From: Sphingomonas sp. Leaf22
GTDB taxonomy: Bacteria > Pseudomonadota > Alphaproteobacteria > Sphingomonadales > Sphingomonadaceae
Direction of reading: 5' to 3'
Length of the DNA: 64,000 bases
NCBI RefSeq assembly: GCF_001421715.1
Contig: NZ_LMKP01000012.1
Span: forward strand, 290,501 to 354,500
In this document: positions 17,724 to 20,671 of the stretch, piece by piece
Layout of the letters: the number at the start of each line of letters is the position of its first letter
Position numbering within the stretch: the stretch's first letter is position 1
Notes under the pieces: generated by a model
Database searches by the model: none
Seen by the model: only the letters and a program-made list of their open reading frames with translations
What the model was told of the DNA's origin: nothing
Position numbers and translations under genes: made by a program

Positions 17724-20671
17724 CACGCCACCACCGCTGCACAGCGCCCGCACAGGTCGCCGTCGGTCGCCACGTCGGGCAGATGCCGCCAGCAGCGCCC
17801 GCACTTCGCTTCCTCGGTCCGGGTCACCGCGATCTCGCCATCGCCCGCCGCGACCTTCGCCACGATGAACAACTCGGCCAGTTCGTCCGCCGACAGCGGC
17901 AGCGCCGGCACGGTCACCTCCGCCTCCAGACTAGACCGCACGGTCTTGTTCCGGCGCAGCGGCTCGATCGCCTCGGTCACCTGGCTACGCAGGCGGCGCA
18001 CATCGGCCCATTCGGTGCCGAGCGGCTGATCGGCGGGCAGATGCGGCAATTCGGGCCATTCGAGCAGGTGGACCGACCCGTCCTCGCTCGGGAACCGCGC
18101 CTGCCACACCTCTTCGGCGGTGAACGCCAGGATCGGTGCGGCATAGCGGACCAGCGCGTGGAACAGTATGTCGAGCACCGTGCGATACGCCCGCCGCCGC
18201 ACGTCGTCCGCTGCATCGCAATAGAGCGAATCCTTGCGGATATCGAAAAAGAACGCCGACAGATCCTCGTTCGCGAAATCGGTCAGCGCACGGGCATAGC
18301 GGTTGAACTCGAACGCTTCCGCCGCGCTGCGCAATTCGGTGTCGAGCGACCCCAGCAGATGCAGGACATAGCGTTCCAGCCCTTGCATCGCCGCCACCGG
18401 CACCCGCTCGTCCTCGCTGAAACCGTCCAGCGCGCCCAGCATGTAGCGGAAGGTGTTGCGCAGCTTGCGATAGGTATCGCCGGTGCCGGCCAGCACTTCC
18501 TTGCCGATCCGCACATCCTCGAAATAATCGGTCTGCGCGACCCACAGCCGCAGGATGTCCGCGCCCGATTCGCCGATCACCTTCAACGGATCGACGACAT
18601 TGCCGAGCGACTTCGACATTTTCCGGCCATTGCCGTCCAGCGCGAAACCGTGGGTCAGCACCGTGTCGTACGGCGCCTGTCCCCGCGTTCCGCAGCTTTC
18701 GAGCAGCGACGACTGGAACCAGCCGCGATGCTGGTCCGACCCTTCGAGATACAGGTTCGCGCGGGTGCCCGCCCCGAACCGCTTTTCGATGGTGAAGACA
18801 TGGGTGCAGCCCGAATCGAACCACACGTCCAGAATGTCGGTCACGACCTCGTAATCGGCCAGCGCATAGTCCGGCCCCAGCAGCGCTTGATGTTCCGCCG
18901 CATACCACGCATCGGCCCCGCCCTCGCGGAAGGCGGTCAAGATGCGGTCGTTGACGGCGGGGTCGCGCAGATAGTCGCCGGTCGTCCGGTTGACGTACAG
19001 CGCGATCGGTACGCCCCATGCGCGCTGGCGGCTGATGACCCAGTCGGGCCGCCCCGACACCATCGCCCCGATCCGGTTGCGCCCCTTTTCGGGCACGAAC
19101 CGCGTCCGCTCGATCGCGTCTATCGCGATTTCGCGAAGGGTAGCACCGTTACTCTCCCTCTCCCCTTCAGGGGAGAGGGTTGGGGAGAGGGGAAGTGCGG
19201 TGAGGTTGGTTACATCGAGCAGCGGATCGCCACTGGCCGACGGCGCGGTTCCCGCGCCGATCTCCGCGCTGCGACCTGCCCCCGGCAGGTCGCTGTTCGC
19301 GCTCCGATCCATCGGAATAAACCACTGCGGCGTCGCCCGGAAAATGACCTTCGCCTTCGACCGCCAGCTATGCGGATAGCTGTGCGCAAAGTCGTCCGAC
19401 GCCGCCAGCAGCGCGCCCGCTTCGCGCAGGTCGCGACAGATCGGCCCTTCCTCCAGCTTGCCGCCATGCCCGGCGGCAACGAATTTCGGGTTGATGACGC
19501 TGCCTTCGCCGCCCAGCCACGCCCAGTCGTCGCGATACCGCCCATCGCCCTGCACCGCGAACACGGGTTCGATGCCATGCGCCTTGCACAGCTCGAAATC
19601 GTCCTCGCCATGGTCGGGCGCCATATGGACCAGCCCGGTACCGGCATCGGTCGTGACGAAATCGCCCGGCAGCAGCGGACGCGGCTTGGCGAAGAACCCG
19701 CCGCGCGCATGCATCGGATGGCGGGCGGTGGCTCCGGCGAGGTCGGTGCCCTTACCCGACCAGACAATCGTCCAGCCGGGACCTTCAGAAAGCCACGGGC
19801 TGCTGCCGTATCGACCTAGAGCCGATGCGATCAGTTCGGTCGCCAGCAGGTATACTCGATCCCCAACGCGGACGGCCGAATAATCAATCTCCGGCCCATA
19901 AGCCAAAGCCTGATTGACCGGAATCGTCCACGGCGTCGTTGTCCAGATCACCGCATGCGCGCCGACCAGTTCCGGCGCATTCGGCGCATCGACGATCTCG
20001 AACGCCACGTCGATCTGCGTCGACACGACGTCCTCATATTCGACCTCGGCCTCGGCCAGCGCGGTCTTTTCGACCGGCGACCACATCACCGGCTTGGCCC
20101 CGCGATACAGCTGGCCCGACATGGCGAACTTCAGCAATTCCTCGGCGATGGTCGCCTCGGCGTCGAACTTCATGGTCAGATAGGGGTCTTCCCAATCGCC
20201 CATGATGCCGAGCCGCTGGAACTGGCCCTTCTGCACATCGACCCATTTGGCGGCATAGGCGCGGCATTCGGCGCGGAACTCGGCCGGGGGGACCTCGTCC
20301 TTGTTGCGCTTCTTGGCGCGATAGGCTTCCTCGATCTTCCATTCGATCGGCAGGCCGTGACAGTCCCAGCCGGGGATGTACGGCGCATCCCTGCCCATCA
20401 GCGACTGGGTGCGGACGACGATGTCCTTCAGCACCTTGTTCATCGCATGGCCCATATGGATGTCGCCATTGGCGTAGGGCGGGCCATCGTGCAGCAGGAA
20501 GCGTTCGCGCCCGGCACGTGCCTGCCGCAGCCGCTCGTACAGCCCGATCTTCGCCCAGCGATCGAGGATCGCCGGTTCCTTGGCGGCAAGGCCGGCCTTC
20601 ATCGGGAAGTCGGTCTTCGGCAGGAAGACGGTGTCGCGCCAGTCGCGCGTGGGTTCGGGCGTATCGGTCAT
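17723..20671 (-). CDS. ileS: Isoleucyl-tRNA synthetase with an extra ~45-residue insert
   Basis: The 982-residue class I synthetase has HMGH at residues 72-75 (the HIGH motif), KMSKSLGN in the second half and a C-terminal zinc ribbon CGRCWRHLP...LCGRC. The start at 20671 opens the conserved N-terminus (DTPEPTRDWRDTVFLP). Between TPQWFIPMDR and LREIAIDAIERTRF, where homologues have roughly ten residues, this protein has 55 (residues 457-511, bases 19139-19303). The insert is polar and includes LPLSPTLSPEGERES, encoded by a palindromic repeat. The frame and all catalytic motifs are intact, so the protein is probably functional. Confidence 0.95.
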   Translation of the reverse strand: MTDTPEPTRDWRDTVFLPKTDFPMKAGLAAKEPAILDRWAKIGLYERLRQARAGRERFLLHDGPPYANGDIHMGHAMNKVLKDIVVRTQSLMGRDAPYIPGWDCHGLPIEWKIEEAYRAKKRNKDEVPPAEFRAECRAYAAKWVDVQKGQFQRLGIMGDWEDPYLTMKFDAEATIAEELLKFAMSGQLYRGAKPVMWSPVEKTALAEAEVEYEDVVSTQIDVAFEIVDAPNAPELVGAHAVIWTTTPWTIPVNQALAYGPEIDYSAVRVGDRVYLLATELIASALGRYGSSPWLSEGPGWTIVWSGKGTDLAGATARHPMHARGGFFAKPRPLLPGDFVTTDAGTGLVHMAPDHGEDDFELCKAHGIEPVFAVQGDGRYRDDWAWLGGEGSVINPKFVAAGHGGKLEEGPICRDLREAGALLAASDDFAHSYPHSWRSKAKVIFRATPQWFIPMDRSANSDLPGAGRSAEIGAGTAPSASGDPLLDVTNLTALPLSPTLSPEGERESNGATLREIAIDAIERTRFVPEKGRNRIGAMVSGRPDWVISRQRAWGVPIALYVNRTTGDYLRDPAVNDRILTAFREGGADAWYAAEHQALLGPDYALADYEVVTDILDVWFDSGCTHVFTIEKRFGAGTRANLYLEGSDQHRGWFQSSLLESCGTRGQAPYDTVLTHGFALDGNGRKMSKSLGNVVDPLKVIGESGADILRLWVAQTDYFEDVRIGKEVLAGTGDTYRKLRNTFRYMLGALDGFSEDERVPVAAMQGLERYVLHLLGSLDTELRSAAEAFEFNRYARALTDFANEDLSAFFFDIRKDSLYCDAADDVRRRAYRTVLDILFHALVRYAAPILAFTAEEVWQARFPSEDGSVHLLEWPELPHLPADQPLGTEWADVRRLRSQVTEAIEPLRRNKTVRSSLEAEVTVPALPLSADELAELFIVAKVAAGDGEIAVTRTEEAKCGRCWRHLPDVATDGDLCGRCAAVVA
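19152..19193. repeat. Palindromic repeat inserted in frame within ileS
   Basis: CTCTCCCTCTCCCC is followed after TTCA by GGGGAGAGGG and then TTGGGGAGAGGGGA, giving overlapping inverted and direct copies of one unit. This unit is a well-known intergenic repeat in many proteobacteria. Here it lies wholly inside the insert of the ileS reading frame and is read as LPLSPTLSPEGERE. Confidence 0.85.

Follow-up and report, generated by a model that had tools for sequence, protein, structure and literature searches.

In-frame palindromic repeats at a recurrent linker of isoleucyl-tRNA synthetase and in other conserved proteins of Sphingomonadaceae

How does an essential enzyme come to be translated through a palindrome of a kind that elsewhere in its genome stands mostly between genes? 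The question is raised by ileS, the isoleucyl-tRNA synthetase gene (17726..20671, reverse strand; stop codon 17723-17725) of the window, the whole 64,000-nucleotide stretch of DNA analysed here. The product, IleS, of 982 residues, was identified from its open reading frame with Pfam domains PF00133, PF08264 and PF06827, and scores 776.8 bits against the NCBIfam ileS model TIGR00392 (cut-off 621.4). The genome that holds it, of 4.2 Mb, is called G000 below. Among the best 80 of at least 592 named loci, the nearest ileS relatives are those of Sphingomonas sp. Leaf10 and Leaf9, at 88% in the best segment.

The expanded linker and its palindromic repeat

Between the conserved stretches TPQWFIPMD, which ends at residue 455, and LREIAIDAIE, which starts at residue 512, the window IleS has about 55 additional residues (457-511; 19139..19303, reverse strand), just where the first-pass annotation had placed them. 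In the solved S. aureus IleRS (1ffy), residues 454 and 512 of our protein correspond to 416 and 419, and two residues are found there. A structure predicted for the window IleS with 42 relatives had a mean pLDDT of 65.8, low across residues 418-512 and over a large part of the catalytic core, and so says nothing on exposure. The expanded loop may be exposed.

Within the linker lies a dispersed palindromic repeat, a single REP-like unit (19151..19196, reverse strand) that encodes residues 493-507, LPLSPTLSPEGERES, in codons 19151-19195. Its core is a perfect 11-bp stem with a 2-nt loop (19156..19179), formed by arms at 19156-19166/19169-19179; the outer 15-nt arms, 19151-19165/19182-19196, agree at 87%. 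When 19130-19320 was folded as single-stranded DNA, it did better than its shuffles by 5.2 s.d., and 0 of 200 shuffles folded as well. The first-pass annotation had described the insert as containing a stretch coded by a repeat of this sort, and while the repeat is real, palindromic and dispersed, it codes for only 15 of the 55 residues. For the remaining 40 residues BLAST found no other strong match in G000 (best E 0.004), and on that result the candidate reading of the left half of the insert as a dispersed repeat too was dropped. Two other inverted repeats in the linker are likewise not multi-copy in G000: a perfect 8-bp palindrome in the non-repeat part (19241..19259) and a perfect 10-bp palindrome coding DLPGAGRS (19271..19293), the peptide of which has its like in a few relatives. 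Outside the gene, the gap between ribF and ileS holds a 39-nt inverted repeat (92%; 20754-20792/20884-20922, 91 nt between), which by its sequence looks like another dispersed inverted pair.

The motif CTCTCCC..GGGAGAG has 52 matches per strand in G000, nested ones counted, against 2 for the reversed control. A BLAST search of G000 with the insert gave at least 15 further strong loci, namely 11 inverted pairs and four single units, the grouping of matches into loci being our own and 40 of 98 candidates having been scored. REP-like copies in G000 are thus many, mostly intergenic and often in inverted pairs; the window copy, by contrast, is single and genic. In the Leaf9 IleS a full pair, KPSPLQGRGLGEG..LPLSPALSPEGERE, stands at the same linker, and a spacer, GDPLL..., is common to the window and Leaf9 linkers. 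The window ileS therefore most likely keeps, within its insert and translated in frame, half of an inverted pair of the REPIN-like kind.

Ten ORFs around the copies outside ileS, picked by length, were scanned for Pfam domains in G000. One had a domain spanning the repeat: the GlyS beta chain, which holds a full pair in frame (G000:C41:446937-447047, L010). In the TrpA and Mur ligase ORFs the domains lie downstream of the repeat, which is thus probably outside those genes, and seven of the ten ORFs had no Pfam match. By this domain-span criterion IleS and GlyS are the in-frame hosts found in G000 for the window repeat.

The IleS linker in relatives

We read the linker in 141 ileS loci, comprising G000, 60 other genomes of the genus and the 80 closest among at least 592 named loci; 128 of these genes are distinct, 13 rows duplicating another. 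It is in frame in all 141, and its length ranges from 8 to 99 residues. Peptides of a repeat family are present in 72 of the 141 linkers (28/61 genus genomes and 44/80 named loci), or in 63 of the 128 distinct ones, the other 65 being free of any family peptide; this assignment by peptide motif is approximate, and L064, L145 and L100 may be chance matches or remnants. As controls, the same motifs gave 3 matches in 3375 same-length segments elsewhere in the IleS proteins and 11 in 2560 shuffled linkers.

Four peptide pairs make up the A type: PSPSGEG..PSPEGEG (A1), PLRGEG..GERE, RLREG..PASGRG and PLVGEG..PTRGEG. The B type (AKAGAS..AFAGVT) is of the CGTC type, the C type reads EPVEAR..RQAQGER, and the D type STSLSTNG..SEVEG. 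Between A, B and C/D there is no evident sequence kinship, making at least three kinds, with C and D perhaps related. In 51 of the 141 loci no same-length segment of the gene has a hairpin stem as long as that of the linker; in C and D linkers the stem does not stand out in this comparison. The 99-residue linker of Sphingomonas sp. CFBP 13720 (L099) consists of a family B insert followed by short SGAGVTSGAG-like repeats.

The linker is accordingly a recurrent site, used by several families and occupied in roughly half of the distinct genes, and not the scene of the single absorption that the first-pass annotation had proposed; the full pair of the window repeat in GlyS of G000 contradicts that singularity as well. 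Nor do most sphingomonad IleS proteins carry the same insert, a finding that would have undone the original idea: in the alignment the relatives have other inserts at this linker, or none. The core of that idea has held: an essential enzyme has taken into its reading frame a palindromic repeat that is dispersed and for the most part intergenic, as is on record for Rickettsia.

Elsewhere in IleS, the variable stretch 267-307 showed no repeats across the 141 loci except one weak motif (L139). Near residue 322 there is a minor site, with A-type repeats in two of the 141 (L070, L071); L083 and L170 have there, by eye, something like family B in another frame.

The families of the linker are themselves dispersed. 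Matches to the A1 (PSPSGEG) linker were found in 48 of 61 genomes (E 1e-5) and to the B (CGTC-type) linker in 34 of 61, while the C (VRAEPVEAR-type) linker has 40 matches in its own genome, the D linker 15, in its right arm (SEVEG), and an additional type derived from GlyS 70 in its own genome; palindromes match both strands, so repeat places are fewer than these counts. The searches took in A1, B, C, D, the GlyS type and the window repeat.

Outgroups have a short linker: for other families of the order it was computed in 20 genomes and has 3-5 residues in all 20. For 16 genomes of other genera of the family, the computed length was 5-8 residues in ten and 25-36 in six. Both sets consist of genomes with a match split at the linker, a choice that favours short linkers. 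Full reading of 19 loci of other genera showed, by eye, clear repeat-like peptides in seven and doubtful ones in two. One linker of 34 residues is conserved among eight relatives, and conserved non-repeat linkers such as this one could point to function.

A FastTree tree was built from IleS with the linker removed; support is below 80 at 37 of its 125 inner branches, and the 13 duplicate rows are included. On it the state of the linker changes at least 42 times when eight states are used, 33 times once A1-A4 are pooled and 26 times when only presence and absence are counted. Close pairs differ: L159 is plain and L151 A1, L174 is plain and L171 D, L095 is A1 and L057 A2, and the window and Leaf9 have A2 where Leaf10 has B.

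Our preferred explanation, to which we give a probability of about three in four, is that mobile palindromic repeats land often, and that copies in frame persist in a small number of permissive loops, where they replace one another. The best of its competitors would have ileS segments with different linkers exchanged between species by recombination, insertions being rare. Close relatives do swap linkers often, and the A3 linker peptides of L045 and L059 are identical, with L059 sitting on a branch of 0.11. Sequence divergence around the linker could likewise be taken as a trace of exchange: 4 of 26 pairs compared have just 72-83% identity across the 60 nt directly downstream, and 18 of the 26 fall below 75% at 360-600 nt upstream, although the variable stretch 267-307 lies there and is probably the reason. 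Against this, identity in the swapped pairs named above is 85-100% over 60 nt to each side of the linker, close to the level in the remaining gene (100% upstream and 95% downstream for L159/L151), which makes exchange an improbable account. In most pairs compared the edges of the inserts are sharp. Repeated landing of mobile repeats, as we prefer it, is still not the same as simple insertion: in several close pairs the older linker is gone, so that loss follows or accompanies insertion, and simple insertion is not the whole story of the linker swaps.

Other in-frame hosts and the choice of site

For ValS, 50 of 61 genomes were covered, and 48 loci were readable once L348 (frameshifted) and L364 (cut) were set aside. 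The loop after FATLGW has 6-9 residues in 36 of the 48 and is filled, with 40-47 residues, in the other 12, by an A-type repeat in 11 and a D-type repeat in one. Arms of at least 9 nt are present at this loop in 12/12 filled and 0/36 empty cases. As for the 11 other genomes, ValS has six residues at the site in ten, and that of G012 is without its left part. The frameshift in ValS of G024 (L348; L437, G024:C9:288900-292100) coincides exactly with a repeat, here shortened, in the FATLGW loop and reflects either an assembly collapse or a real break.

In the GlyS beta chain, the loop after WLVEEGIV holds a repeat peptide in 27 of 28 readable loci among the best 30, which, as best matches to a repeat-bearing query, favour filled sites; L186 and L203, with the right-hand motif unmatched and repeat peptides visible, were left out. 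Among 18 further genomes with GlyS in two pieces the site has 4-6 residues in 13, 11-13 in three and 64-65 in two; of the remaining genomes, ten have pieces that either span the site or are missing a side, and three of the 61 yielded no match. Many species thus have the GlyS site filled, and many have it empty. At a second GlyS site, after NILKKE, the motif matched in 7 of 29 readable loci (L181 left out), with more by eye. Two other highly variable stretches, at about 584-612 of GlyS (L180-L209) and about 437-457 of ValS (L355-L366), have no repeat peptides by eye.

To these we add two samples of repeat copies. The first takes 80 of the listed copies, 68 of A1 from six genomes and 12 of B from two, tested for frame, stops and GC3 on both sides. 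In frame within conserved proteins were 19 of the 80, or 17 of 78 without the queries, and eight of these 17 are in synthetases; the queries came from IleS, which may bias the sample towards in-frame copies, and copies in orthologues are non-independent by descent. The hosts are ValS (3), GlyS (3) and IleS (4, two being the queries), with GlyS and IleS assigned by genome place, and further a biotin-carboxylase-type acyl-CoA carboxylase (2), UvrA (2), CarA, MutL, MetH, PutA and a phage terminase. The second sample, of a third family in G021, gave 2 of 38 in frame in conserved proteins and none in synthetases; some of its matches are of 40-51 nt and the L428 stretch spans two matches, so its genic count may be low. 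Its hosts are a dehydrogenase E2, between the lipoyl and E3-binding domains, and TruB, between the N and C domains (L421, G021:C1:1582163-1586273). ORFs with no Pfam match (L221, L222, L230 and L280 in the first sample, L404 and L419 in the second) were not counted as genic. The synthetase bias of the first sample (8/17) is not what tolerance alone predicts; in the second sample the figure is 0/2.

That bias, together with the repeated use of the same residue by different families, is what one would see if a mobilising enzyme favoured structures or sequences at these sites, the hotspots then being hotspots of insertion and not of survival. Such a target preference would have to be the same in different repeat families, however, and 61 of 80 and 36 of 38 sampled copies lie outside conserved genes, with natural inter-domain stretches (E2, TruB) among the in-frame sites. 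We consider it unlikely, slightly more so than exchange between species; the sites would rather be chosen by survival.

A third possibility is that the repeats have been recruited, either as a useful mRNA hairpin that slows translation or transcription of synthetases, or as a flexible Pro/Ser/Gly peptide within them. The hairpins are strong, and three synthetases are affected, often across many species. Yet the families swap often, many sites are empty or plain, and the copies are unremarkable in translatability, with 2.7 of six frames open in intergenic and 3.6 in genic copies against 3.0 in shuffles, figures on which we dropped special translatability as a property of the repeats. Recruitment is for these reasons doubtful, a little more so than target preference, and the peptide probably has no selected function. 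An artefact, through assembly error or through low-complexity Pro/Ser/Gly linkers that resemble repeats, is very improbable: palindromes do assemble poorly, and G024 ValS is frameshifted exactly at its repeat, but in-frame inserts are carried by many separate assemblies (those at the same residue in relatives make an error in the window unlikely), nucleotide copies in the same genome extend over about 80-130 nt at about 75-90% identity, and the motif controls given above are low.

Under recurrent landing with survival in permissive loops, then, several families of short palindromic mobile repeats would keep inserting genome-wide in Sphingomonadaceae. Copies that landed elsewhere in essential enzymes would mostly be lost, and tolerant loops would keep those in frame: the IleS linker after TPQWFxPMD, the ValS loop after FATLGW and the GlyS-beta loop after WLVEEGIV, with further tolerant places in TruB, UvrA, the E2 linker and others. 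Surviving copies would decay and then be replaced by later insertions of other families, and loops with 35-60 extra residues would be the survivors' sites. More speculatively, and with no better prospects than we give to recombination, the synthetase loops might be docking sites at which families compete, moved by something other than RAYT, with the enzymes of translation targeted or their output tuned.

What began as one repeat in one gene may so be viewed as a natural insertion-scanning experiment, in which positions of essential enzymes have accepted many peptides in the history of the family. It maps permissive loops, and offers many gains and swaps for testing how mobile palindromes enter proteins.

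Comparison with known systems

The window repeat is dispersed, in frame in a conserved protein and absent from homologues, and so falls under the definition of a protein-coding palindrome. Rickettsia palindromic elements are read in frame inside unrelated conserved proteins, and the Gmk product of one such gene stays active (PMC2229807, in part); RPE-1 is found within the TruB gene, TruB being an intragenic host in several genera (PMC3733652, in part). We liken our repeats to these by kind, from descriptions in parts of those papers: both are palindromic repeats in frame in unrelated conserved proteins. Ours differ in their host group, and in that a given residue of a given enzyme holds several different families in different species. 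The protein-coding palindromes of Wolbachia are, to judge from a title, of the same kind. The in-frame repeat in TruB of G021 parallels the use of TruB as a host in Rickettsia and others (PMC3733652, in part).

The closest precedent is that of Di Nocera et al. (2013; PMC3733652, as are the statements of this paragraph, from parts of the paper), who describe REPs of the GTAG and CGTC families in ORFs, among them synthetase ORFs in X. oryzae, E. litoralis and S. alaskensis. The recB genes of two Xanthomonas have different REPs at about the same site, while REPs in same-category genes elsewhere stand at different sites. The term 'IleRS' is absent from the main text; the synthetases reported may include IleS. 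By eye, a family B linker (L044), with CGTC, an 8-bp stem and a 4-nt loop, resembles CGTC-1 of that paper.

The window repeat belongs to neither of the REP types with which it was compared. Neither GTAG nor CGTC occurs, on either strand, in any of 26 matched copies or in the window repeat at 19151-19196. From the GTAG (RAYT) type it differs in having no GTAG head and no RAYT gene in G000, and from the CGTC family in lacking its combination of a CGTC end, an 8-9 bp stem and a 4-5 nt loop. In forming inverted pairs of short palindromes, many per genome, it is like REPINs (PMC3116915, in part). The RAYT-mobilised REPINs of that source differ: a search for the Y1/RAYT transposase (PF01797) came up empty in G000 and, G000 included, in 57 of 61 genus genomes, the other four being positive. 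REPIN-like dispersal where the usual transposase is not found implies some other mobiliser.

Apart from PMC3733652, recurrent palindrome insertion in synthetases is unreported in the literature covered, most subscription papers lying outside it. Protein-coding palindromes as such are known; what appears to be new is the occupation of the same sites by different families, in three synthetases of one bacterial family.
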